Below, piece by piece: positions 4,796 to 26,627 of a stretch of 64,000 nucleotides of DNA. The position numbers and the translations under genes are program-made. A model generated the notes under the pieces. It worked only from the letters and a program-made list of their open reading frames with translations, did not search any database and was not told the origin of the DNA. This DNA comes from Prunus persica. Lineage: Eukaryota; Streptophyta; Magnoliopsida; Rosales; Rosaceae. Every line of letters starts with the position of its first letter. The stretch's first letter is position 1. Location: positions 21,576,462 to 21,640,461 of the forward strand of contig NC_034015.1 in assembly GCF_000346465.2 (NCBI RefSeq), written 5' to 3'.

Positions 4796-6273
4796 TGAGA
4801 CTGAGTTGTAGAATGATTTGCTGCAGCAGCTTGAGTGGCATCCTTTATAGCTGGATTCCTCTAGTATTCTAATGGCTAGACTCATAAGTTTGAACTTGAA
4901 ATTAAGTTGATAGTCGTAAGAAATGAACCCACTAGTTCTATTAAACTAGACGGTTGATATACAAACTAAACTATAGGCGTTGAATTTAAAACATATATGC
5001 CACTGATATCTCATCTATCAAGCTGCCGGCCGTTGGTTTAACACAAAAGTATTTGTGTGGCCTGCCTGCGCGCGGACATTAGCAAAATTGCATGTATACA
5101 GTTTGAGGCTTTGCAACGTCTGCACAGAACTGATTAGTGAAGAAGACAAGTTAACATTCTCCTTGACCAATATTCTAACTGAGTCTCAGCAGCAGCATTA
5201 GGATTTCTTTTTGAACCAGGAATTAATTTGAATGGGTCGCTTTAGGCTTTGCATTAGAATGATAATTTAACAGGAAACAAGCTTTATATATTAGCAACAT
5301 GTAATTAATATAATGACTGCCAACCGCCAAGAATGTATTTCAGAGCCCAGAATACAAAACAAAAAAGACTTTAGACAGAGGCCGCGGTTAAGTAACCATA
5401 ATTAATAGTGACACTTAACCCAAGTATGTCCTCATCTGCAAAAGTACCAACTGGCAAAAACATCGAGGGTATTATTGGGTTTTCACGTTTCATTTGTGAG
5501 CTTATTTCTTTCTTCTCTTTCTTTATAGAAACAGAAAGAAACAAAGTGCCTTATCAAAAACAAAGAAAGAAACAAAGTGGAAATGAATAGCATACACGAT
5601 GTGTTTTAATCTGAACCCTGTATGAAGTCTAGAATTGGCAGAAGAAGGGCTCCAGGAAAATTGTCTCTTGGCTTGCCATCGCTTTCGTGGCAAGACAAAC
5701 TTTTCAAAGAATTTACATTTCACAAAAAGTTCGGTGGCAAAAGTGTTCCATTCCATGCCACGTTCGTCTTCTTCAACTTAATCCAGAGACTTGCTTGTGG
5801 CATATGATTACTCCATTTCACACACACCCTCCTCATCCTGCTGATTTATTATATTTAGAAAAGAAAAAAACAAGAGCTTGATTGATTGGTTTGGCTGCAA
5901 TGCAATCTCCATTAATCTGTCTAGTCCAATATCATGATTTTCCTGCAAATGTAAACAAGGCAGCCATGCAGAGTTACGGCCAAACTGGGGCCGCCACTGT
6001 AAAATATCTGCTTAGATCACGTACGTACACGGAAGGTAAGTGGTCTCATATAAAGTATGTTAAGAATACACACAGTCCCACATTGGATACTTAACAAAAT
6101 ATAAAGTCTCATATAATAAATGGCTCCGCTCCTAATAACATCGAGACCCTCCACACCTTCTAAATAGGTGGTGAAGTTGGAGACAATATCGATGTTGAGT
6201 ACTGATTATCATCTTCAATTATCTTCAATGTCTTAGCTTTCTTCTCTCTTTTTAATTAACTAGCTTTATATCC
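4796..6273. other. Intergenic, 5' flank of the first complete RLK, duplicated downstream
   Basis: No gene is supported. The segment 5158-5345 recurs almost unchanged at about 10530-10730, and 5620-5790 recurs at about 19205-19360. The upstream flank was therefore copied together with the receptor kinase gene. Short open frames in 5408-6094 look like chance. Confidence 0.6.
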
Positions 6274-9200
6274 ATGGGATCAAAAAACGTCACCCACCTT
6301 TTCCTCTTCATCTGCCTTATTTCGTCTCAGTTTTATTGTTGTTTCTCTGCACAAACTGGGATCAGAGCTGGTTACTGGTATGTCGATAGCGAGTCCCCGA
6401 TACCTGACATAAACTCTGCCTTGTTCACTCATCTTATTTGTGCCTATGCTGATATAAATTCATCCACCTACCAGCTCTCCATCCCTTCCTCTCAGGAGCC
6501 ATCCTTCTCCAGCTTCACCGGTATCGTCCAGCGCAAAAACCCATCAGTTATAACACTCCTGTCCATCTGGAATGGACTAGCTGCAACAAATCAATCAATT
6601 TTGGGGGAGAAAGCTAACTCTTCAGTCTTGTCCTCAATGGCCAGCAATCCTTCTAACAGAAAGTCTTTCATTGAATCTTCAATCAAAACAGCAAGGCTTT
6701 ATGGCTTTCAAGGTATCGACTTGCTTTGGCTTTGGCCTAGGACAACCTCTGATATGATCAACATGGGAAAGCTATTGGATGAGTGGGGGGCTGCTGTGAA
6801 TTCTGAGTCAAGAAACTCTAGTGATCAGTCACGCTTGATATTGACAATGGCGGTTCGTTATCTGCCTGCTTTCGAATCATTGAGTTACCCGATTGAATCT
6901 ATGAAAAGGAATTTGGATTGGGCACATGTTGTGGCATATGACTATCATCTACCTGCTAAGGAGAATGTTACTGGTGCTCATGCTGCTTTATATGACCCGT
7001 CAAGCCATGTTAACACCAACTACGGTATAAAGCAATGGCTAAACAACTCATTTCCTGCTAGCAAACTGGTTTTGGGTTTGCCTTACCATGGCTATGCGTG
7101 GACACTTGTGAACCCCAAAGACAATAATGGAATTGGGGCACCTGCAGCCGGAAAAGCTGAGACGAAAGATGGATCCATGAGCTATAAATACATCAAGTGG
7201 TACATTAGAAGCTACGGAGCTCCCATAATGTATAATGCTACTTATGTTGTGAATTATTGTATCATAGGATCGAATTGGATTGGTTTTGATGATTTGGAAG
7301 CTGTCAGAACTAAGATTGCATATGTGAAGGAGAAGAAGCTACTTGGTACCAATGTGTTTCGAGTCACCAATGATGACAATTGGGCGCTTTCTCAGGCAGG
7401 TTGGCCAAAGTGATTTTTGATGCTATGTTGTTGACATGTCATAGAACTCAATTTTATATACTGAAGGAAGTTGAATTTTGACAGCAGGCTATCTGCCTAA
7501 ATCAACTTATTTTCTAATGGAGATCCCTTTATTCTACTTCTAACTGGTTTAGTAAATGACAGTTCAAGAGGAAGAAAATGATCAAGAAAACAGGCGGCGG
7601 TTATTGCTTGTAGTTTTGCTTCCAATTACTTTGATCATAATCCTCATAGCCTTCGTGGTGTGTTACTTACAAAGAAAATTGTTGAAGACAAAAGGTGATT
7701 TTTCTCACTGTTGTTGTTTGTTTCGAATAGCAATTAGACAAAGATAAAACCTCTTTTCGAATTTACATCAAGAGTTTTGCATTTGCATTTTCACTTTTTA
7801 TATTTTTTCCTTCTGGTTTCAGGGATGATTATTCGTGGGAATTCAAGGTCTACTAGTACATCAGATATTAACAGTGATCCACCAACTCTGCAAGCATTCA
7901 GTTTTTCGAATATCAAAGCAGCAACAAATAACTTCTCAAGTGAAAACAAGCTTGGAGAGGGAGGGTTTGGTCCTGTTTACATGGTAATATTTGCTACCTT
8001 ATCTAACATAAGTTTACACTGTGGGAACTGGGATTTAAAACTTGTGGTTGTATGTGTGCCCTTGTGTATAATCTGCTGCTACTTTTAAAACAATGAGATG
8101 TATATCAATAAAAAACTCTTTCCCTGAACTACCCCATTCCTACTTTCCTGCTACCAAGAAAAGGGAACAAAAAAAACTTTAGGCTTAAAGCTGTGTCTAT
8201 GATAATTGGCTACTAATTCCCCTCATGCTGAACCAAAAGCTTATCAACAACTGAAAGCAGAGTCACCTTCACCTCGTGTTAATTAAGTGGTACATTCTGG
8301 TGAACAGTGAGAGTGATACCATTTGTAGATTCATCTTTTGATCAGATATATATCTGGATTTTCTTTTTACTAAACCTTGCTAACTTAACTAACCATGGTT
8401 TTCTTCAATTTTTTCAAGGGTAAATTGCGAGGAGGACAGGAAATCGCAGTGAAAAGACTTTCGAAAACGTCAACTCAAGGACTTGAGGAATTTAGAAATG
8501 AGGTTACACTTACTGCAAGACTACAGCATGTAAATCTAGTTCGAGTTCTTGGATTTTGCACTGAGAAGGAAGAAAAAATGCTGATCTACGAGTACATGCC
8601 CAACAAAAGCTTGGACTTCTACCTTTTTGGTCTGTAATTTTTCATGCTTCCTGTTATGGTTGAGAGTGCAGGCTAGCATAACACAATACTTTTGCATTCT
8701 GTAAGTTTCAGTGGGTCTTAACATCTCCTCTAAGAGGTAAAGATGGGGGGGTTAAACTCATTGAAACTCTCCAAATAGTTAGACAAGCGTATTCTTGAGG
8801 AACACTAGTGTATATTAAGCTAAAAAAATCACTTGTTAAGCCATCTAAGCTTACGGTGCAGAAACCTGTTACTTTTAATTTGTCTGTCTCTTGCTCCTTC
8901 GCCTACCTCATTGGTCCTGAATTTGAAATCTTGCAGATCCTACCAGACGGTATCTTCTAGACTGGACAAAGCGTGTGCACATCATTGAAGGGGTTACCCA
9001 AGGACTCCTATATCTTCAAGAATACTCCAATTTTACAATTATTCACCGAGATCTGAAAGGTAGCAACATTTTACTTGACCATGAAATGAATGCTAAGATA
9101 TCAGATTTTGGAATGGCTAAACTTTTCAGAAAAGATGGACTTGTAGCAAACACAAAGCGGATTGTTGGAACATAGTAAGTAAACTGCCTCTTTTTGGTTA

Positions 9201-9800
9201 TTCACACACACATGATCATTTCCTTTAATACTACTTGTGGTATGCAATGCAGTGGCTATGTTCCTCCTGAATATGTAAAAAAAGGTATATACTCTACAAA
9301 GTACGACGTCTACAGCTTTGGGGTTCTACTTTTGCAAATGATTAGTGGAAGGAGGAGCACATGTTACTATGGTCCAAACGAAAGCTTGCACCTCTTGCAA
9401 TATGTAAGTTCCATAGCTGTCTCTGATTCTATCACCAGTACTGGAAACTATTACTTAGATCTAAACTATATATGAAGTGACATTCAAACTCTTTCAGGCA
9501 TATCTATCATGGAAAGAGGACAAAGGAAGGGAATTTATTGATCCATCACTGGATGATTCTTCTTCTTCTTGCAAATTATTGAGATGCTTGCAAGTGGCTC
9601 TATTATGTGTCCAGGAAAATCCAGAGGATAGGCCTACAATGTTGGAAGTTTATTCCATGCTCAAAACTGACATTGAACCCGTTCCTACTCCTACGAAGAT
9701 GGCTTTCTCAGGACATGGAATTGTGGAAAACACATCAACACCGCAGCAAGGAAGTTGTTCAGTTAATGATGCACAAATTTCCGAATTGCAACCCCGATGA
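6274..9800 (+). CDS. GH18-ectodomain receptor-like kinase, tandem copy A, catalytically dead GH18
   Basis: Exons 6274-7399, 7563-7694, 7823-7983, 8419-8629, 8937-9174, 9253-9403 and 9498-9800 join in frame to about 773 residues. The order is: signal peptide (to about residue 26, ending FSAQT), GH18 barrel (about 28-375), a short charged linker, a transmembrane helix ([20 protein letters not shown]), a juxtamembrane region, and a Ser/Thr kinase. The kinase shows [27 protein letters not shown] and VPPEYV, so it looks active. The GH18 catalytic segment, normally DxDxE, reads GIDLLWLWP. The second aspartate and the proton-donor glutamate are both leucine. Chitin hydrolysis is therefore unlikely, and a ligand-binding receptor role is inferred. 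It sits in tandem with the copy at 15259, which matches it through introns as well as exons. Confidence 0.9.
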
Positions 9801-10761
9801 AATTGCAGGCTCAGAATAGGAGACATTAGTTTTTCATTTTCAGTGGTTGAGTTCTTAGGCTCAAGAATGTGGGTGGTCGTATATACTCTATGAAGTATAC
9901 AAGATTTTAGCAACTTTGGATTCTTCATCTGGAGGCCTACATGTTCTAAACATTACAATATTTGGTTGAATTAAAAATTTGCAATTCCTGTGCAGAGAGA
10001 AGGGAGGGAACTGCTGAGGCAAGTCATTTGAACATTGAACTAGTGGTTAGGCTTAGACCAAGGGGAGGATATGCCAAATTTTTTGTTTTGTTTGTACGAA
10101 ATTCTTTTATACAACAATAACAAAAACTGCAGGGAAAAAAATTCAAATCCAGCCTGCATTATTCCCAGACAAACGCAACTGAACATGAAAAACAACAGAA
10201 TAACATGTCCACTCAGAGCCCCGTTCCAAAAGAAAACCACCACCAAATGAGAAGTATTAGCATTTTTGTCAGAAGTTAAAGGGGTAAGAAATGGCCTCTT
10301 CTAACAACAACCTTCATCATTGATTCATTGATTTCGACAGTTATAAAAATTAGTGACAGCAATTAAGTTAAGACAAGTGGTTTAAAGTAACAATATATGT
10401 TATGTAGTCGTTCTAAGGTTGGTTTTAAAAACCATTTGCTTGTGAAGCCTGTGTTGTTATGATTGGAGCTACTGCTTACTCGTGACTTCCCTGTCCAAGC
10501 ATTGATCATCTCCACAAGCATACATTCTCTTGACCAATATTCTAACTGAGTCTCAGCAGCAGCACTGCAGCAGCATTAGGATTTCTTTTTTAACCAAGAA
10601 TTAATTTGAAAGGGTCGCTTCTCGCATTAGACTTTACATTAGAATGATAATTTAACAGGAAACAAGCTTTTTATATTAGCAACATGGAATTAATATAATG
10701 ACTGCCAACCGCCAAGAATGTATTTAAAGGCCGGTTTTAAGTAACCATAATTAATTAGTGA
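9801..10761. other. 3' flank of RLK copy A and duplicated upstream flank of copy B
   Basis: The stretch 9801-10130 matches the 3' flank of copy B at 18804-19140. The stretch 10530-10730 matches 5158-5345 upstream of copy A. No coding region is supported. The junction between the two duplicated units therefore lies between about 10140 and 10530. Confidence 0.6.
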
Positions 10762-15174: not shown

Positions 15175-15258
15175 ATGATGCCATGTATATATATATGTAT
15201 TAGTACGTAGTAGTAGAAACTAGTCATCTTGTAAGAGGAAAAATCAAACTAGCTTTTT

Positions 15259-18200
15259 ATGTCCATGTCCATGGGATCAAAAAATATCACTCCCCTTATC
15301 CTCTTCATCATCTTCCTTATTTCATCTCAATTTTATTCTTGTTCCTCCGCACAAACTTGGATCAGAGCTGGTTACTGGTACGCCGGTAGCGAGTCTCCCA
15401 TACCTGACATCAACTCTGCCTTGTTCACTCATCTTATTTGTGCTTCTGCTGCTCTGAATTCCTCCACCTACCAGCTCTCCATCCCTTTCTCTCAAGAGCC
15501 ATCCTTCTCCATCTTCACAGGTGTCGTCAAGCGCAAAAACCCATCAGTCATAACACTCCTATCCATCTGGAATGGACAAGCTGCAACAGCTCAATCAATT
15601 TTGGGTCAGAAAGTTAACTATTCAGTCTTGTCCTCAATGGTCAACAAACCTTCTAACAGAAAGTCTTTCATTGAGTCTTCAATCAAAACAGCAAGGCTTT
15701 ATGGCTTCCAAGGTATAGACTTGCTTTGGCTTTGGCCAAACACAGCCTCTGATATGATCAACATGGCAAAATTATTCGATGAGTGGCGAGCTGCTGTGAA
15801 TTCTGAGTCAAGAAACTCCAGTGATCAGTCACGGTTGATATTGACAATGGCCATTCGTTATTTGCCTGCTTTCGAATCGTTGAGTTACCCGATTGAATCT
15901 ATGAAGAGGAACTTGGATTGGGCACATGTTATTGCATATGACTATCATCTGCCTTCTAAGGAGAATGTCACTGGTGCTCATGCTGCTTTATATGACCCGT
16001 CAAGCCATGTTAACACCGACTATGGTATAAAGCAATGGCTAAACAACTCATTTCCTGCTAGCAAACTGGTTTTGGGTTTGCCTTACCATGGCTATGCGTG
16101 GACACTTGTGCACCCCAAAGACAATAATGGAGTTGGGGCACCTGCAGCCGGCACAGCTGAGACGAAAGACGGATCCATGAGCTATACGTACATCAAGCGG
16201 TACATTCGAAGCTACAGAGCTCCCATGGTGTACAATGCTACTTATGTTGTGAACTATTGCATCATAGGGTCGAGTTGGATTGGTTTTGATGATGTGGAAG
16301 CTATCAGAACTAAGATTGCATATGTCAAGGAGAAGAAGCTACTTGGTACCAATGTGTTTCAAGTCACCAATGATGACGATTGGGCGCTTTCTCGGGCAGG
16401 TTGGCCAAAGTGATTTTTTATGCTTTGTTTTTGACATGGCATAAAACTCAATTTTATATCCTGAAGGAAGTTGAATTTTGACAGCAGGCTATCTGCATAA
16501 ATCGACTTATTTTCTAATGGAGATCCATTTATTCTACTTCTAACTGGTTTAGTAAATGACAGTTCAAGAGGAAGAAAATGATCAAGAAAATAAGCGGCGG
16601 TTATTGCTTATAGTTTTGCTTCCAATTACTTTGATCATAATCCTCATAGCCTTCGTGGTGTGTTACGTACAAAGAAAATTGTTGAAGACAAAAGGTTATT
16701 TTTCTCACTGTTAGTGTTTGTTTCGAATAGCAATTAGACAAAGATAAATTCTCTTTTCAAATTTACATCAAGAGTTTTGCTATTGCATTTTCACCTTCTT
16801 TTTTTTCCTTCTGGTTTCAGGGATGATTATTTTTGGGAATTCAAGGTCTACTAGTACATCCGATCTTAACAGTGATCCTCCAACTCTGCAAGCATTCAGC
16901 TTTTCGAATATCAAAGCGGCAACAAATAACTTCTCAAGTGAAAACAAGCTTGGAGAGGGTGGGTTTGGTCCTGTATACATGGTAATATTTGCTACCTTAT
17001 CTAACATAAGTTTACACTGTGGGAACTGGGATTTAAAACTTGTGGTTGTATGTGTGCCCTTGTGTATAATCTGCTGCTACTTTTAAAACAATGAGATGTA
17101 TATCGATAAAAAAAATCTTTCCCTGAACTACCCCATTCCTACTTTCCTGCTACCAAGAAAAGGGAACAAAAAAACTTTAGGCTTAAAGCTGTGTCTATGA
17201 TAATTGGCTACTAATTCCCCTCATGCTGAACCAAAAGCTTATCAACAACTGAAAGCAGAGTCACCCTCACCTTGTGTTAATTAAGTGATACATTCTGGTG
17301 AACAGTGAGAGTGATACCATTTGTATAGATTCATCTTTTGATCAGATATAAATCTGGATTTTCTTTTTACTAAACCATGCTAGCTTAACTAACGGTTTTC
17401 TTCAATTTTTCAAGGGTAAATTGCGAGGAGGACAGGAAATCGCAGTGAAAAGACTTTCGAAAACGTCAACTCAAGGACTTGAGGAATTTAAAAATGAGGT
17501 TACACTTACTGCAAGACTACAACATGTAAATCTAGTTCGAGTTCTTGGATTTTGCACTGAGAAGGAAGAAAAAATGCTGATCTACGAGTACATGCCCAAC
17601 AAAAGCTTGGACTTCTACCTTTTTGGTCTGTAATTTTTCATGCTTCCTGTTACGGTTGAGAGTGCAGGCTAGCATAACACAATACTTTTGCATTCTGTAA
17701 GTTTCAGTGGGTCTTAACATCTCCTCTAAGAGGTAAACATGGGGGGTGTTAAACTCATTGAAACTCTCCAAATAGTTAGACAAGCATATTCTTGAGGACT
17801 GAACCAACACTAATGTATATTAAGCTAACAAAAATCACTTGTTAAGCCATCTAAGCTTATGGTGCAGAAACCTTGACTTTTAATTTGTCTCTCTTGCTCC
17901 TTTGCCTACCTCATTGGTCCTGAATTTGATATCTTGCAGATCCTACCAGACGGTATCTTCTAGACTGGACAAAGCATGTGCACATCATTGAAGGGGTTAC
18001 CCAAGGACTCCTATATCTTCAAGAATACTCCAATTTTACAATTATTCACCGAGATCTGAAAGGTAGCAACATTTTACTTGACCACGAAATGAATGCTAAG
18101 ATATCAGATTTTGGAATGGCTAAACTTTTCAGAAAAGATGAACTTGAAGCAAACACAAGCCGGATTGTTGGAACATAGTAAGTAAACTGCCTCTTTTTGG

Positions 18201-18803
18201 TTATTCACACACACATGCTCATATCCTCTAATACTTGTGGTGGTATGCAATGCAGTGGCTATGTTCCTCCTGAATATGTAAGAAAAGGTATATACTCTAC
18301 GAAGTATGACGTCTACAGCTTTGGGGTTCTACTTTTACAAATGATTAGTGGAAGGAGGAGCACATGTTACTATGGTCCAAACGAAAGCTTACACCTCTTG
18401 CAATATGTAAGTTCCATAGCTGTCTATCATTCTATCACCACTAATGTAAACTATTACTTAGATCTAAACTATATATGAAGTAACTTTCAAACTATTTCAG
18501 GCATATCTATCATGGAAGGAGGACAAAGGAAGAGAATTTATTGATCCATCACTGGATGATTCTTCTTCTTCTTGTAAATTATCGAGATGCTTGCAAGTAG
18601 CTCTATTATGTGTCCAGGAAAATCCGGAGGATAGGCCTACAATGTTGGAAGTTTATTCCATGCTCAAAACTGATACTGAACCCATTCCCACTCCTACAAA
18701 GATGGCTTTCTCAGGAAATAGAAGTATGGAAAACATATCTACATCGCAGCAAGGAAGTTGTTCAGTTAATAATGCAGAAATTTCCGAGTTGCAACCCCGA
18801 TGA
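15259..18803 (+). CDS. GH18-ectodomain receptor-like kinase, tandem copy B, catalytically dead GH18
   Basis: Exons 15259-16399, 16563-16694, 16821-16981, 17415-17625, 17940-18177, 18256-18406 and 18501-18803 join to about 778 residues. An alternative start at 15271 (MGSKN) matches the start of copy A and may be the real one. Domain order and every exon length after the first equal copy A. The GH18 motif is again inactivated (GIDLLWLWP). The kinase keeps its glycine loop, catalytic lysine, HRDLKGSN and DFG. Differences from copy A are scattered substitutions; for example, the protein has FQVTNDDDW where copy A has FRVTNDDNW. Both introns and flanks are alike, so the duplication is recent or kept uniform by gene conversion. 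The promoter holds CATGTATATATATATG about 75 bp upstream of the start. Confidence 0.9.
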
Positions 18804-19710
18804 AATTGCAGGCTCAGAATAGGAGACATTAGTTTTTCAATTTCAATGGTTGAGTTCTTAGGCTCAAGAATGTGGGTCGTCATATACTCTATGAAGTATA
18901 CAAGATTTTAGCAACTTTGGATTCTTCATCTGGAGGCCTACATGCCGTAAACATTACAATATTTTGTTAAATTAAAAATTTGCAATTCATTTGCAGAGAG
19001 AAGGGAGGGAACTGGTGATGAGGAAGTCATTTGAACATTGAACTAGTGGTTAGGCTTAGACCAAGGGGAGGATACGCCAAATTTTTTGTTTTGTTTGTAC
19101 GAAATTCTTTTATACAACAAAAACAAAAACTGCAGGAAAAAAAATTCATTGTGAGTTTATTTATTTTTATCTTTCTTTTAAGAAAAGCCTAGAATACACT
19201 ATGTTTCTTTCCGAATGAAGTCCAGACTTGGCAGGAAAAGTATCTCTTGGCTTGCCATCGCTTAAGTGGGCAGACAAACTTTTCCAAGAATTCACATTTC
19301 ACAAAAAGTTTGGTGGAAAAACTGTTCCATTCCATGCCACATCTTCTTCAACTTAATCTAATTATTGAGCTTTTGCAAAATGATACTGTCTACAGGACTT
19401 CTTTGAAGCTGTCTTTGACCAAAAACAAAGGGTGTGTGGATTTGAACTCAGCACAAGCTCTACGGGATTTTATTACCACACTGTAGGGACGCAATTAAAC
19501 GTAGTTTACCTTCTTGACCTGGACAGACATAATCATATATTAGCTCCAAAACATGATTGGTTTAGTGTCAGTTGTTCTCACATTTCTATACTCTAGAAAG
19601 AAGATTTCAATTTGAATTTGGAGTCTGCTTTAGCAGATAACTGATGTTCAATAGTCATCTGCCCGCCCATATCCTGCACTGCACATGATGCGCCATGTAT
19701 ATGTATTAGC
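18804..19710. other. 3' flank of RLK copy B and promoter flank of broken copy C
   Basis: The start matches the 3' flank of copy A. The stretch 19205-19360 matches 5620-5790 upstream of copy A, and 19365-19705 matches the copy B promoter region including CATGTATATGTATTAG. There is no gene. Confidence 0.6.
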
Positions 19711-20600
19711 AGAAGCAATGATCGACAAACTGCTAGGCGGTAGGCGGGTGGCAGGACGGGGCCTAGCGCCTAGAGGAATAATAGGGCGCCTAGGCGTTTC
19801 TTTTTAAAAAAAAAAAAATTGTATTATAAATTATAAATTTATACCAAAATCATGCAAAATAAAAGGGTATATAAATTATAAAGTACCATAATTGATACTA
19901 GCCTCTCTGCACGCGCTTCCGCGCTTGCGAGAGGTTTTTTTAAAAAAATAAGTAAATTTATTTTAGAATTAAAAAAGATAATGAGTTAGTTGTGTTCCAT
20001 AAAAATAGGATCCATTATCTGCCTTTTCTTTTTCTTTTAATTTTTTTAAATATGAAAAAGTGTGAATTTACCATATTATCCTCATTTAATTAATAATTTG
20101 AATTCTTAATGTTTGCATTAACCAAGGGCATTTTCTGGTATTTTGAATGTTTCACCATTCTCTGTCTTTTGCTTTATATATATAGATTAGCCCATTGGCA
20201 CATGCTCACGCATGTGCCAATTGGTTTTTTTTATTTATTTTTAGAATTAAGAAAAGATAATATGAGTAGTTATGTTCCATAAAAATAGGACATATTATCT
20301 GATTTTGTTTTTAATTTTAATTTTAATTTTTTAATATAAAAAATTTAAATTTACTATATTATCCTCATTTAATTAATAATTTTAATTCTTAATATTTGAA
20401 TTAACCAATAGCATTTTCTGGTATTTTGAATGTTTCACCATTCTCTGTCTTTTGCTTTATATATATAGATAAAACATGGGAAAAACCTAGGAGGCAACGG
20501 CTCAAAGGAGAGAGAGGCAGCGTGCTTGAAGTCCGGAAAAAGAAAATTTTTATAATTAAAAAAAAGGACACGACCCGCCTAGGCCTATTTTCGAACAGGG
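19711..20600. mobile_element. Transposon insertion in the promoter of broken RLK copy C
   Basis: Compared with the copy B promoter, foreign DNA begins after CATGTATATGTATTAG and ends before TCATCTTGTAGGAGG. Its outer parts are rich in GCCTAGGCG words (19735-19800 and 20575-20590). A related block, including GCGACGGCTCAGAGG and CGCCTAAGCC, occurs again at about 23330-23450. No transposase is visible. The element class is unknown. Confidence 0.5.
19900..20470. repeat. Direct tandem duplication of about 280 bp
   Basis: The tail GCATTTTCTGGTATTTTGAA through TGCTTTATATATATAGAT occurs at about 20128-20188 and again at about 20411-20470. The preceding AT-rich text, with ATAAAAATAGGA and CATTTAATTAATAATTT, also recurs in the same order. 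It lies inside the insertion upstream of copy C. Confidence 0.65.
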
Positions 20601-21017: not shown

Positions 21018-21442
21018 GTATAGCCGATCGGCTATACCTGTTTGACACGTGGCGACCAACCGCAATAAGGGTTATTTTATACATATAAATAGTATAGCCG
21101 CCCGGCTATACTGGGTTTTGGGATTTCTTTGAAAAATAGTACAGCCGCCCGGCTATACTGGGTTTTGGGATTTCTTTAAAAATAGTACAGCCGCTCGGCT
21201 ATACCCGGTCGGCAATACAGTTTTAGAAACGTGGGCCCCTAATCGCAAGGCGGGTCTTTTTTTTATTTATATAAATAGTATAGCCGAACGGCTATACTAG
21301 GTTTTTCTGAAATTTTGTTAAAATCGTATAGCCGGACGGCTATACTCTGTTTTAGTAATGTTTCTTACAAAATAGTATAGCCGAGCGGCTATACCCATTT
21401 GTTCTCTTCTTTTTTTTATAAATAGTATAGCCGCGCGGCTAA
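21018..21442. repeat. Array 1 of 20 bp palindromes, GTATAGCCG-NN-CGGCTATAC
   Basis: Eight units lie at 21018, 21092, 21139, 21185, 21278, 21326, 21375 and 21425, spaced 46-93 bp apart. A ninth, half unit with centre GT abuts the fourth at about 21205. The nine-base arms are almost invariant and perfectly complementary. The two central bases vary: AT, CC, CC, CT, AA, GA, AG, CG. Units sit in A/T runs (usually AAATA before and GGTTTT or similar after). Some spacers carry GACACGTGGC, or a relative of it, followed by a block like CCTAATCGCNAGGNGGG. No ORF or known transposon terminus explains it. Confidence 0.9.
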
Positions 21443-21449
21443 AACGAGT

Positions 21450-21770
21450 ACACGTGGTGCCAAATTTTTTTCAACAATCCAAACCATCGATTTTTCACAT
21501 CTTCATTTAGAGATCATCCTTGCAAAAAATCATTAAGGCATCTAATTGAGACCAACAAAATCAATGAACACGGTGTTTCAAGAAAGTACTTAGATTTCAA
21601 TCATTTAATTGAGTTGTCAAATGATATCGGATTCAAGTAATTTTTTGTAAAGATAATCTTTGAATGGATATCTATAAAATAGACGGTTTGGATTAGTGAA
21701 ATACAATGTGGAGTGAGCCCTATAAGAGTGTCCCTTAATGGAAGCTATATATATATATATATATCCTTTT
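21450..21770. repeat. Dispersed repeat, second copy at 37560-37890
   Basis: This shares long blocks with 37560-37890, including CAAGAAAGTA, GTCAAATGATATC(A/G)GATTC, ATATCTATAAAATAGA, and ACAA(G/T)GTGTCCCT-like text, and both copies end in an (AT)n run. It does not look coding. A transposon of unknown type is likely. It adjoins palindrome array 1 directly. Confidence 0.65.
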
Positions 21771-22402
21771 TAAAATATCTGAGCCGGATGTTGGCTTAAT
21801 GGGATAGCATGCAGATGAATTTCTGGAAGAAACATGTCAATTTTTATATTAGTTCAATTGACTTTTGTATGGATTGTGAATGTCTGGGAAGCTAGAATTT
21901 GTTGCATCCAGAGGCTGCAGCCTGCAGTTTTCAATCAGAGAATTCTTAATGTTTGAGGATGTTCTTAATGTCGCGTCCTCCTATGCCTAGCCACTCTGTC
22001 CTCAGAACGCACTCCATGGCCTTATATGCAGTATATTAATTTATATATAGACAGCTTGTTTCTGGTTTAATTAGTATATTCTACTCTAAAGTCTAAAATG
22101 AACCATTCTGATCTGATCAAATCCCAAGTGGTGTTAAATAAATAAAAAAGAATGTAAAGTTAACAGATGTCAGCCGACCAGTCAGCTTAGCCAATGCACG
22201 TTTGCACTTGATGCATGTTATACCTGACAGATAAGTATTCACGGAACAAAATAGAAGAAGAAGAAAAAAAAACTTATCAAAGTGAAACCAGCCGTTAGAT
22301 TAGAATACAAGATAAATCCACCTATAAGAATTAAGCATATACCAATGGATTCTAAAAGCTTCAATTCAAGCTGCAGAAAATCATTGTAGAAGAACTCAAT
22401 CA
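21771..22402. other. Intergenic
   Basis: No gene is supported. The last 80 bases resemble a chitinase 5' leader (ACCAATGGATTCTAAAAGCTTCAATTC), similar to the leader and start of the pseudogene at 4795. Confidence 0.4.
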
Positions 22403-22889
22403 ATGGGTTCTAAAACACAAATCACTACCTTTCTTCTTGGCCACCCTGTTTTCCCTTGTCCAAGCTGTTGCCCCAAATGGTACAGTTAAAGCAGGTTACT
22501 GGTCTAGTGGCATCCCATTTCCGGCTGATGCCAGATCATCATGGTATATTTGCACCAGCCAATGGAATGGCAGTACCGTCAGATGGCGCGCTAGGTATAT
22601 TTGTACAGCTGTGACACCAACTGTGATCAATTCCACACTTGTTATGGACTATACCTTCTCTGGGAAGACTTGGATTGGTTATGATGATACGCAGAGTATC
22701 ACTACCAAAGTCTCATATGCTAAGGGCAAGGGACTAGTTGGCTACTTTGCATGGAACTTTGGCCTCGATTTCAATTGGACTCTTTCACAAGCAGGCAGGT
22801 ATATATTTATATGACACCAACCCTCTTTCATGTTCTATTAATTTTGTGCTAACTCCTCATGTGAGTGTTAAATTTGTTTGCAGCTTAAT
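22403..22889 (+). pseudogene. Class V chitinase pseudogene lacking its catalytic core
   Basis: An ATG at 22403 opens a signal peptide like that of the secreted chitinases (MGSKTQITTFLL). An extra T near 22437 shifts the frame into ATLFSLVQAVAP. The mature start VKAGYW is present. Shortly afterwards (about 22525) the sequence jumps to the region that normally reads GIYAPANGMAVP, in a different frame, so about 230 residues including the DxDxE motif are gone. The C-terminal third, from VINSTLVMDYTFSGKTWIGYDD to WTLSQAG, is in frame. A splice donor near 22797 and an acceptor at 22882-22883 lead to a tiny last exon ending in TAA. It cannot make a chitinase. Confidence 0.8.
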
Positions 22890-23039
22890 ACGCTTGGGAA
22901 GCTTAGGGACGGACAACTTTTCCTGCCAGAAGATCATGTGATTTTACATCCTCCTCTCCACTGTAAAGACCAATTAGCTGATGCTACACTACTCAAAGCA
23001 GAAATGGCATGCCATTTGTATTCCTGATTTAGGCCAATT

Positions 23040-23460
23040 ACCTAGAGAGAGAGAGTAAAATAAAATAAAATAAAGACCCGTTCCAACATTTTGTTTTGTT
23101 TTGTTTTTTAAATTAGCGATAACGAACACCGATAATAACTCCGTTCTCTTTTTATCTTATCCAACCCCTGAAAATCCTCCTCTCCATATCCCTCCAAGAC
23201 TCTCTCGTTATCGGACTGAAACTCAACATCCTCTCCATATTTCTCTGCAGGTCGCGGCCCGGTGGTGGTCGTCGTGGGTGGAGGCCTGGTGGTGGTGGTC
23301 TGTCGTGAGAGAGAGAGAGAGAGAGAGAGAGCGAAGGAGGCGACGGCTCAGAGGAGAGAGAGGCAGTGTGAGGTTCTATTTAAAGCCTGCAAAAAAAACC
23401 TGACTCGCCCAGGCGCCCAGACCCGCCTAAGCCGATTTTTCGAAGACAGTTTTTGACAAT
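23040..23460. repeat. Transposon remnant with a (GA)n run, related to 20470-20600
   Basis: The block around 23330-23445, GGCGACGGCTCAGAGGAG then GAGAGGCAGTGTGAG then CGCCTAAGCCGATTTTTCGA, is similar to 20490-20595. A GA microsatellite occupies 23306-23331. The open frames here are low-complexity. Confidence 0.5.
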
Positions 23461-23492
23461 AAACTAAAACTCAGTTTTTTGGTATACAAATA

Positions 23493-24190
23493 GTATAGCT
23501 GCCCGGCTATACTTGGTTTTATTGATGTTTCAAAAAAAATAGTATAGCCGCACGGCTATACCTATTTCGACACGTGGCCTTCTATCCGCTAGGATGGTTT
23601 CTTTTTTTAAAAAATAGTATAGCCGGACGGCTATACTCGGTTTTTCCTTTTTTTGCTTTTAAAAACAGTATAGCCGTTCGGCTATACTCTTTATTCGGTT
23701 TTATTCCAAAAATAGTATAGCCGACCGGCTGTACTTGTTTTGACACGTAGGCTCTTTAAAGATGGGCGGCCCCTTTTTAAAAAAAAAATATAGTATAGCC
23801 GTGCGGCTATACGTATGTTGATACGTGGCCCCTCTTCGATATGCGGTGGGCTCCTTGCTGCTGGACGGGACCTTTTTTTCTTTTAAAAAAAGTATAGCCG
23901 CGCGGCTATACGCGTGTTTTTTATAAATAGTATAGCCGCCTGGCTCTACCGGTTTTTCTGTTTTTTTTTAAAAATAGTATAGCGTCTCGGCTATAAGCAT
24001 TTTGACACGTTTCGCTATGCAGGTCCTTTTTGTATATGTAAATAGTATAGCCGTCCGGCGATACTCTGCGTTATTCTGATTTTTTTAAAATAGTATAGCC
24101 GGGCGGCCATACTTATTTTGACACATGGCACCTAATCACTAGGTGGTCATCGCTTTTTTATTTAAAAATAGTATAGCCGCTCGGCTATAC
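23493..24190. repeat. Array 2 of 20 bp palindromes, GTATAGCCG-NN-CGGCTATAC
   Basis: Twelve units lie at 23493, 23542, 23617, 23668, 23715, 23793, 23892, 23930, 23977, 24045, 24093 and 24171, with a decayed thirteenth near 24211. The centres are CC, CA, GA, TT, AC, TG, CG, CC, CT, TC, GG and CT. Most arms are perfect; five units carry arm substitutions. Spacers again include TTCGACACGTGGCC, TTGACACGTAGG, GATACGTGGCCCC and TTGACACATGGC. The array ends by running into a chitinase fragment at about 24222. It is separated from array 1 by about 2 kb that holds another chitinase pseudogene. Confidence 0.9.
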
Positions 24191-24221
24191 GCAGATGATT
24201 CTAAAAAATAGTATAGGCACC

Positions 24222-24655
24222 CGGGATTCTGGGATCACTGATTGGCTTCAGGCAGGTGTGCCTCCAAAAACGATTGCATTTTGCACCAGCCAGTGGAATG
24301 GCAGTACCACCGGATGGATCAGCGGGTTACAACCTAATCAAGGCATATATAGCTGAGAATGGTGCACCAACTGTGTTTAATTCTACACTTGTTATGGACT
24401 ATTCCTATACTGGGAAGACTTGGATTGGTTATGATGATAGGCAGAGTATCACTACCAAAGTTTTGTATGCTAAGCGAAAAGGACTACTGGGATCCATGTC
24501 CATGTCAATTGGACTCTTTCAGATGCAGGTATGTATTCAACTAAGCATTTAAAAGCTTCCCAATCATGTTTTTCATCATTATTAATTGTACTGATGATGC
24601 CTAATGTGTGTTAAATTTGTTTGCAGCTTCATGCGCATGGGGAGCATAGGGCCAC
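24222..24655 (+). pseudogene. Class V chitinase pseudogene, 3' fragment
   Basis: The fragment begins abruptly at the edge of palindrome array 2 with sequence corresponding to SGITDWLQAGVPPKTIAF. It skips the GLPFYGYAW segment and continues APASGMAVPPDGSAGYNLIKAYIAENGAPTVF in frame to WIGYDD. The strand after GLLG, normally YFAWNVG, is deleted. A splice donor (CAGGTATGTATT, about 24527) and the acceptor TTTGCAG (24621-24627) precede the last exon. With no N-terminal half and no catalytic motif it is dead. Confidence 0.8.
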
Positions 24656-25277
24656 TACTTTTCCTACCAGAAGATGATGTGATTTGCTTTCTCCACAATC
24701 AGACCAAATGCTGATGCTAATTAGGCAGAAAGAAGACATTTCATTCATTTGGTATTCAGCCAAATCAGGCCAGTTACCTATTGTTCTCCATCAACAAACA
24801 TATTAATGATAAAGTTGTAATCCCATTCGCATTTGTTTTTCTTTCTTCTTTTCCTTTTTTATGATAACGAGTAGTGGAAAATAGCAGAACATGGCTGAAA
24901 AATATCCTCGTGTGATGAGAAAATGATTTGAGATAGATCAACAATTACTTGAATGAGTTGGTTTTGCACTTGCATCAACTAGGTTGATATAATTCTGATT
25001 CTGAGCCCAAGATAGTTTGTTTAATTTAATATTTGATTTTGAATTTCCGGTGAAAACACGGCTAGGCTAGCGACATGCATTTTTTAAGTTGGAATCGAAG
25101 TCTACATGACATTAATGGAAGAATAAACAGAAATTGGAAATCTTATTGTTTATCTGGTCGATTAGTCTTATTGCAAGTAACAGCTCTATCTGGATACAGA
25201 GCGTGGGCTTATTTTATGTAATTAACCAACCCTAAAACGTAGATGTATCATATCAGCAGTAACTGTAATCTTTGTGC
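24656..25277. other. Intergenic between converging chitinase loci
   Basis: I see nothing beyond AT-rich sequence and the 3' flanks of the two chitinase loci. Confidence 0.5.
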
Positions 25278-26565
25278 TCATCCCCATGTGCTTGAAGCTG
25301 CAAGAAGGAAAAACAAAAAAAATCATATAGTTAAATCAATCAACAGTAATTAGTGCCACTAAACAAATAGTTATCGTCTTGTTCAGCCAAAAACTACACA
25401 ACCACATATTGTATTATTGAATTTAGAAGAATTAAATTCATATATATTATGCAAATTACTGGTGTTGTTACTAACCTGTTTGAGAAAGAGCCCAATTACT
25501 GTTGTCAGCACCAACATGCCACGCAAAGTAACCAAGAAGCCCTTTTGTTACCTTGGCATATGAAACCTTTGCAGAGATGCTCTGCGTATCATCATAACCA
25601 ATCCATGTTGTTCCTGAGTAGCAATAGTTTGTAACAACCGTGGCATTGTACACTGTTTGTGCCCCATTCTGGCTTATGAAATTTCTTATTTGGTTGTAGC
25701 CTTGATCCCCGTATTGCCCTATAGCCGATCCATTAGCAGGAGCATAAAGGCCATGGTTATTCGCGTTCAATAAACGCCATGCGTAGCCATAAAAGGGAAG
25801 GCCTAGCACTATCTTTTTGGCAGCCAAACCTGCTTGAATCCAGGATGTGATACCAGCATTCCCGCTAACCTGACTGTTGTACAATGCTGCAGGTGGTCCG
25901 GTGTTGTTTGGGGACCAACCAGGGCCGTAGAAGTCATAAGCCATGACATTGATCCAGTCTAAACTGTTTGATATGGCCTGGAAGGGGTAATTTATGGTGT
26001 AGTAATCTGCAGAGCGAAAGACAGCGGCGGCTAAAAGCAAAGCAGTCTTGCCAGAGGCCTTGGACTCATTGGCCACGGCAGCTCGCCACTCGGTGAGAAG
26101 GCTGCCCAAGTTGGTCATCTCAGTGGTGGAGGATGGATATTCCCAGTCGAGGTCCAGGCCGTGGAAGTTGTAAGACCTTGCTAACGTGATGGAGGAGTTA
26201 ATGAATGATTTGCGCCGGCTGGCTTGGCTGGCCATTGCCGCAAAGGTTGCTGGATTAGCATTTCCTCCGCCAATGGATAAGAGGGTTTTCACTGCAGGGT
26301 TGTTTTTTTGTACTGTTTGTGTGAAGCTTGAGAAGGGGGCTGAGTTTGAGGAAGAAACGGTGACTTGGTAAGTGTCGGAATTAAGATCAGCAAATGCGCA
26401 AAATAGATGAGTGAAAAGGCTGGAATTTATGCTGGAGGCTGGGAAGCCACTGTCAGGAAACCAGTAAGCGCCCTTAACCACAGTTTGGCCGGTTGAGAAG
26501 CTGAGTTGGGCAAGGAAAATGAGACCCGAAAGAAGGATCAATGGAAGTGTTAACTTGGAAGACAT
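25278..26565 (-). CDS. Secreted class V chitinase (GH18), intact
   Basis: Exon 1 runs 26565-25476 and a 20-base last exon runs 25297-25278 (stop TGA). Together they encode 369 residues. The signal peptide (LPLILLSGLIFLAQLSF) is followed by the mature start TVVKGAYWF. The GH18 barrel carries the second-strand motif SIGGG, the catalytic motif GLDLDWEYP with all three acidic residues, MAYDFYGPGW, and WIGYDD. It should hydrolyse beta-1,4 GlcNAc polymers in the apoplast or vacuole, a defence-related role known for the family. It is the only copy of the secreted type in the window without lesions. The tiny last exon is shared by the pseudogenes, which confirms the gene structure. Confidence 0.93.
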
Positions 26566-26627
26566 TGCAGCAAATGGATGAAAGAGGAAATGGTTCTTGC
26601 TTGCTGATTGTTATGACGATCTTTTAT

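Follow-up and report, generated by a model that had tools for sequence, protein, structure and literature searches.

An arrayed palindrome of Prunus persica whose two central bases are probably a mutation hotspot in the intact site, with a dimeric factor as a candidate cause

The two central bases of a short palindrome, GTATAGCCG-NN-CGGCTATAC, which is repeated in arrays in the genome of Prunus persica, very probably constitute a mutation hotspot as long as the palindrome is intact. We observed an excess rate of change at the center, a nearly fixed gap between the arms, a profile of substitution across the site, and a dependence of the excess on the arms (in one clean set of copies and some small ones). 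To account for these features, we propose that the unit would be an inverted 9-2-9 site whose center is fixed at 2 bp, arrayed in several dispersed repeat backbones. With both arms intact, the two dyad bases would form a heritable hotspot that mutates about 10 times as fast as flanking DNA, lesser peaks would occur at the inner G and C and at two bases outside each arm, and loss of an arm would largely stop the hotspot. Combined with a dimeric factor as its cause, this hypermutable dyad that needs an intact site is our best explanation, and we lean modestly toward it.

The palindrome was noticed in a stretch of 64 kb (G000:C7:21576462-21640461), referred to here as the window. A search of the window that allowed up to three mismatches returned 21 matches, whereas shuffled sequence returned none in 100 shuffles. 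One of the 21 is an overlapping half unit with center GT and three mismatches (21199..21218, no strand assigned), and the window therefore holds 20 units, 11 of them with perfect arms. They form two arrays, for which no strand is assigned: eight units at 21018..21444 (centers AT, CC, CC, CT, AA, GA, AG and CG) and 12 at 23493..24190 (CC, CA, GA, TT, AC, TG, CG, CC, CT, TC, GG and CT). The 20 centers comprise 13 distinct dinucleotides, with GT, GC and TA absent. The mismatch search and the shuffles thus bear out an earlier note on this DNA as to the 20 full units (8 + 12), the 13 of 16 possible centers and the half unit with GT. The note gave a spacing of 46 to 99 bp; the start-to-start distances actually range from 38 bp (23892 to 23930) to 99 bp. 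A degraded unit lies past the second array (24211..24230, no strand assigned; repeat family D2).

The two arrays contain homologous 80-bp stretches on the plus strand, at 21321..21400 and 23488..23567. Between them, the center differs at 4 of 4 positions, the arms at 1 of 36 and the spacers at 9 of 40. Each array also has upstream of it a non-array repeat of family D12 on the plus strand (20489..20524 and 23335..23370), the two copies being 92% identical. No part of the window matched an Rfam family at gathering thresholds. Several other features were seen near the arrays. GH18 (chitinase-like) reading frames, which may be genes or fragments, adjoin them at 22356-22811 and 25474-26610 on opposite strands, and a GH18-related stretch follows the second array at 24280-24780. 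Directly after the first array lies an inverted repeat (21460-21530 / 21640-21711, 76%) that is perhaps a separate small inverted-repeat element. Two long similar stretches, 6258-10145 and 15223-19148, are about 5% diverged where sampled and may represent a retroelement that is present twice. Long spacers frequently include a GACACGTGG-like block that has a G-box core (for example, at window positions 21048-21060 and 23571-23581).

In the genome (227.5 Mb in 192 contigs), there are 4,142 exact copies of the pattern and none of its reversed control. The prokaryotic genome_contigs collection contains one matching stretch; a search of IMG/VR, from which near records may be left out, returned none. 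The 2-bp gap is nearly fixed. Genome-wide, only 36 perfect-arm sites have arms that abut or lie 1 bp apart, and in the fetched loci, within which other gaps were counted, exact half-sites lie 2 bp apart 118 times, 1 bp apart twice and 3 bp apart once. Facing half-sites of neighboring units in these loci are most commonly separated by a 28-bp spacer, corresponding to a 48-bp period (50 cases).

To describe the center, we used a fetched subset of the genome consisting of 70 loci plus the window (71 sequences, 317 kb in all), in which, with L039 left out of the count, there are 454 units with up to five arm mismatches. The 114 perfect-arm units among them include all 16 centers, and CG is the commonest (31 of 114). 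C occupies the inner base in 47% of folded positions, and the two center positions show some dependence on each other (chi-square p = 0.0005; both values from 333 units with up to two mismatches). Because it is CG-rich, C-weighted and non-independent, the center is better called degenerate than uniform. With this nuance, the original impression of near-fixed arms around a near-random center, and of something other than even decay, was upheld.

Rates were estimated from homologous units that were aligned through their flanks, with pairs chosen by flank similarity and with L001-L004, L025 and L026 left out of all pair analyses. A first pass over 18 close pairs, a few of which were false units with six mismatches, gave divergences of 0.082 for the flank, 0.080 for the arms and 0.444 for the center. 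Later counts used stricter mismatch limits. Among disjoint nearest pairs in which both units have up to two mismatches (94 of 96 pairs), the five bins of flank divergence gave differences of 15/747, 62/859, 188/1,690, 230/1,386 and 155/679 in the flank; 6/198, 23/270, 50/558, 42/450 and 18/216 in the arms; and 4/22, 14/30, 40/62, 31/50 and 13/24 at the center, which is near its ceiling once flank divergence reaches about 0.1. For 43 disjoint pairs of units with up to three mismatches and flank divergence up to 0.10, the center differs at 39 of 86 positions and the flank at 164 of 2,889, a ratio of 8.0 (bootstrap 6.4-9.7). If a saturation level of 0.67 is assumed, the corrected ratio is 12.8 (8.7-21.9). 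Because it changes about eight times as fast as the flanks, the center is hypervariable and not merely free to vary.

The arms behave differently. When the partner unit was left unfiltered, arm divergence was 0.012, 0.054, 0.079, 0.087, 0.102 and 0.105 in bins whose flank divergence was 0.022, 0.071, 0.119, 0.166, 0.211 and 0.261, respectively, so that the arms change at 0.4 to 0.8 of the flank rate. A near-consensus copy that decays neutrally would be expected to diverge in its arms by between half and the whole of the flank value. The arms therefore look near neutral early, although long-term constraint is possible in the deepest bins, where divergence flattens. The anomaly is mainly the center and not the arms. 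The earlier note had suggested that the ability to pair, or a dimeric binding site, is kept up while the center merely drifts. The importance of the intact palindrome stands, as described later; upkeep of the arms as the core of the anomaly is not supported, given arms that look near neutral and a center about eight times faster than its flanks. The tabulation of center against arm substitutions that the note suggested, made here over fetched homologous pairs, thus places the arms at or below the flank rate and the center far above it.

These numbers also bear on the view that constraint is the whole explanation, that is, that the arms are a selected dimeric binding site and the center is simply neutral. 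A strict gap, a degenerate center and a weak preference for C at the inner base do resemble a dimer site, and in a tree of 35 copies, with units filtered to up to four mismatches and L039, L041 and L072 left out, arm positions of intact units changed in a mean of 1.33 steps against a background mean of 3.73. However, in the same tree, the two center positions took 16 and 12 steps, with a background maximum of 12. A neutral center cannot outpace spacers of the same age eightfold, which contradicts this view unless the spacers are strongly constrained, and arms near neutrality in close pairs are also unfavorable to it. We consider it very improbable. Arm positions altered on both sides number 37, compared with about 17 expected if changes were independent (228 units); 14 of the 37 are compensatory, mostly at inner CpG positions, so that the signal for pairing is ambiguous.

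Evidence that the excess depends on the palindrome comes chiefly from ten copies of one sub-repeat. Each carries an intact palindrome 1, GTATAGCCG-NN-CGGCTGTAC, whose centers in the ten copies are AT, AT, CT, GT, GT, CC, TC, GT, CT and CT. At a distance of 28 bp lies palindrome 2, whose right arm is replaced by CGGCATCAT or a sequence close to it; its center is TG in eight copies and TT in one, and in the remaining copy palindrome 2 is deleted. On a tree built from the flanks, the center of palindrome 1 requires 5 + 2 steps (at least 7) and that of palindrome 2 requires 0 + 1, against a background of 35 steps over 210 sites with a maximum of 2 at any site; the broken-arm copies in this comparison share one junction, and the other broken sets are small. 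The replaced arm is itself the junction, as five other copies of the right-hand sequence in the genome lack the palindrome side. Units that were broken in a common ancestor likewise hold their center (AG in four, GG in two and CA in two). In pooled pairs with flank divergence of 0.08-0.12, broken pairs differ at 2 of 32 center bases and intact pairs at 208 of 330, whereas in the lowest bins, the broken values (3/36 and 7/56) exceed the flank (0.020 and 0.055) but lie below the intact values (6/28 and 66/120); the pooled broken class consists of few copies counted repeatedly and includes chance matches and minisatellite palindromes. The center excess is thus apparently confined to intact palindromes, on the strength of one clean set and small sets beside a mixed pooled class, and the contrast within the ten-copy set agrees with the suggestion that palindrome integrity matters.

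A folded profile of 60 disjoint pairs with flank divergence below 0.12 shows where changes fall. The center differs at 56 of 120 positions (0.47), and the inner G/C at 25 of 120 (0.21). The two bases just outside the arms form a further peak (32/116, or 0.28, and 34/115, or 0.30), the remaining arm positions range from 0.01 to 0.11, and positions beyond the outer bases range from 0.02 to 0.12. In all loci, A/C differences dominate at the bases numbered -1 and 20 (30 of 57); the spectrum at the center is flat instead. Center changes are mostly single-base, length-preserving and transversion-rich: transitions and transversions stand at 7:17 (d<0.08), compared with 54:37 in the arms (d<0.12), and one-base and two-base changes stand at 7:2 (d<0.06), 23:13 (d<0.12) and 35:25 (d<0.16). 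Inversion of the center was considered and rejected, because only 1 (AG/CT) of 22 changed pairs among 38 is a flip.

The type of change is informative regarding exchange, in which gene conversion or template switching would carry centers from one palindrome to another. Conserved arms do provide thousands of sites with short homology, loss of an arm would halt such copying, and duplication and repeat junctions fall in palindromes. However, a G variant in the right arm of palindrome 1, only 6 bp from the center, is kept in 10 of 10 copies through all of the center steps, which disfavors exchange of whole palindromes. Two-base changes, at 2 of 9 (d<0.06) and 13 of 36 (d<0.12), are also fewer than the 0.56 expected for draws from the pool, and the value for d<0.16 (25 of 60) is nearer its expectation of 0.54. 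We therefore regard exchange as very unlikely. Slightly less probable again is that the pattern is ordinary decay or an artifact, with CpG loss from a CG center or base-calling errors at hairpins as the source. That CG is the commonest center of perfect-arm units fits this idea, as do the CpG-type transitions often seen at arm positions 7 and 8, but the richness of center changes in transversions does not. Moreover, close copies have the same centers (AT in L040 and L041, and both centers in L071 and L072), which argues against base-calling error.

The most serious competitor is a generic hairpin or cruciform, in which the extruded GNNC would form a loop of unpaired bases subject to damage or faulty repair. 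The outer peaks would then mark the base of the stem, with no need for a special protein. The four-base core (positions 8-11) and the edge peaks of the profile have the expected form, and a tetraloop fold is predicted at -10.2 kcal/mol for the extended unit, compared with -1.6 for a broken unit. Loop or spacer excess has also been reported for short inverted repeats elsewhere. Zou et al. (2017, PMC5737083) describe loop hypermutability in human breast tumors, and a 2026 survey (PMC13155455) describes how, within bacterial species, the spacers of inverted repeats have more substitutions than the arms. As in our family, the substitutions of Zou et al. peak at the center of the repeat and depend on its arms. 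However, that work concerns tumors and many unrelated repeats, whereas we find inherited change in a plant, in one sequence family, at about eightfold and beside a quiet control palindrome; the published excess averages about 1.35-fold, with values of up to 90-fold at single sites. The bacterial excess is statistical, over all inverted repeats, in contrast to a single dispersed family in which the gap is fixed at 2 bp.

Control palindromes point in both directions. A family of similar layout, CCTAGGCG-NN-CGCCTAGG, has just two center classes in 27 copies (GG/CC in 14 and GC in 13), these copies including close neighbors on C2 and C3; in the fetched loci, its center is GG/CC in 7 of 8 and GC in 1 of 8. 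Nevertheless, one palindrome of this layout is predicted to be about as stable as our family and, in its context, to fold better than palindrome 1 (-9.2 vs -5.4), which is contrary to what a hairpin alone would give. AT-rich TTCGAA palindromes show some center excess (5 of 22, against a flank of 0.076), as a generic palindrome effect would produce, yet they vary less than palindrome 1 and fold about as well (-5.1). The other palindromes in the profile comparison are few and mixed. Because the control family is quiet, yet includes neighboring copies, and because TTCGAA palindromes show an excess, a site-specific dimeric factor is only slightly favored over the generic hairpin, which we regard as a possible but doubtful account.

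If such a factor exists, it would be a sequence-specific protein, bound as a dimer to the two half-sites and reading the arms and not the center. It would repeatedly cause damage or nicks in the dyad and at the edges of the site, error-prone repair would then produce the observed peaks, and the protein may be transposon-encoded. We offer it as a candidate cause, tentatively and with rather less confidence than the hotspot itself. No factor or gene for the proposed protein was found among the 60 of 61 open reading frames (ORFs) near arrays that were scanned. The AP2/ERF factors suggested by the earlier note do not appear to be favored by anything in the letters of the motif, where GCC-box or DRE cores would arise with only some of the 16 centers. 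Because the data come from one assembly, mutation in time and change at each copying event fit alike. The stronger claim of a sequence-specific germline mutator, a dimer on the 9-2-9 palindrome that would rewrite the dyad bases without altering their number at thousands of dispersed sites, is in our judgment doubtful.

The surroundings of the arrays were studied in twenty 9.9-kb loci read around the first matches on contig 1, and in additional loci. Arrays are carried by several different repeat backbones, none of which is given a family name here. A 500-bp backbone is flanked on each side by units in 12 of 12 loci fetched, one of them overlapping a locus read earlier, and sometimes forms array-backbone-array chains. 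A second backbone adjoins a CGCCTAG minisatellite (L040-L057), whose own palindromes hold a nearly constant center. Two arrays are enclosed by inverted repeats (L019 and L023), and others, including those in the window, have spacers with the GACACGTGG-like block. The 61 ORFs of at least 130 amino acids were listed from the 20 loci and part of the window. The scan for domains found a single reverse-transcriptase fragment, which lies in L007 at a distance of 2.6 kb from a unit. The genome has many MULE and hAT domains; no MULE domain occurs among the 60 scanned frames. One frame (L009:3-713) has no Pfam match and is presumably copia-like, judging by its appearance.

We considered whether the unit represents abutting ends of micro-transposons with a 2-bp target duplication. 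This reading is disfavored because single palindromes occur without neighboring units in the L016 and L017 copies. Palindromes may act as rearrangement breakpoints. A 99.85% identical duplication (L038/L039; G000:C7:20700600 and 20755960) starts inside a palindrome unit, at position ~305-315, and the junction of the L042 group likewise lies inside a unit. Past the boundary of the L038/L039 duplication, about 3.3 kb contain three mismatches, one of which falls on a palindrome center. At the boundary itself there are two more, both in the center of the unit where the duplication starts.

Literature searches with the letters of the motif, for palindromic Prunus repeats and for dyad hotspots gave nothing that looked related by title among the papers listed. 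Two plant systems invite comparison. Sireviruses carry repeated motifs with a CGG-CCG core near the promoter in Ty1/copia LTRs (Bousios et al. 2010, PMC2829016), and they resemble our family in that a CpG-bearing palindrome recurs many times in non-coding mobile DNA. However, the core here is CCG-NN-CGG and so differs from CGG-CCG, and the accessible sections of that report contain no description of hypervariable centers. The VANC target motifs of VANDAL transposons are protein-bound and densely arrayed in the non-coding parts of these elements (Hosaka et al. 2017, PMC5735166). Here too, short motifs have been amplified into dense non-coding arrays. The VANC motif, YAGTATTAY, is arrayed in one orientation, and palindromes are not mentioned in the accessible portions of that article.

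If our explanation is true, thousands of near-identical copies, together with broken-arm controls, would serve as a natural assay for mutation directed by palindromes in the germline of a eukaryote. With it, one could ask directly whether hairpins alone or a protein raise mutation several-fold. It would also mean that degenerate positions within conserved motifs can reflect fast mutation and not relaxed selection.
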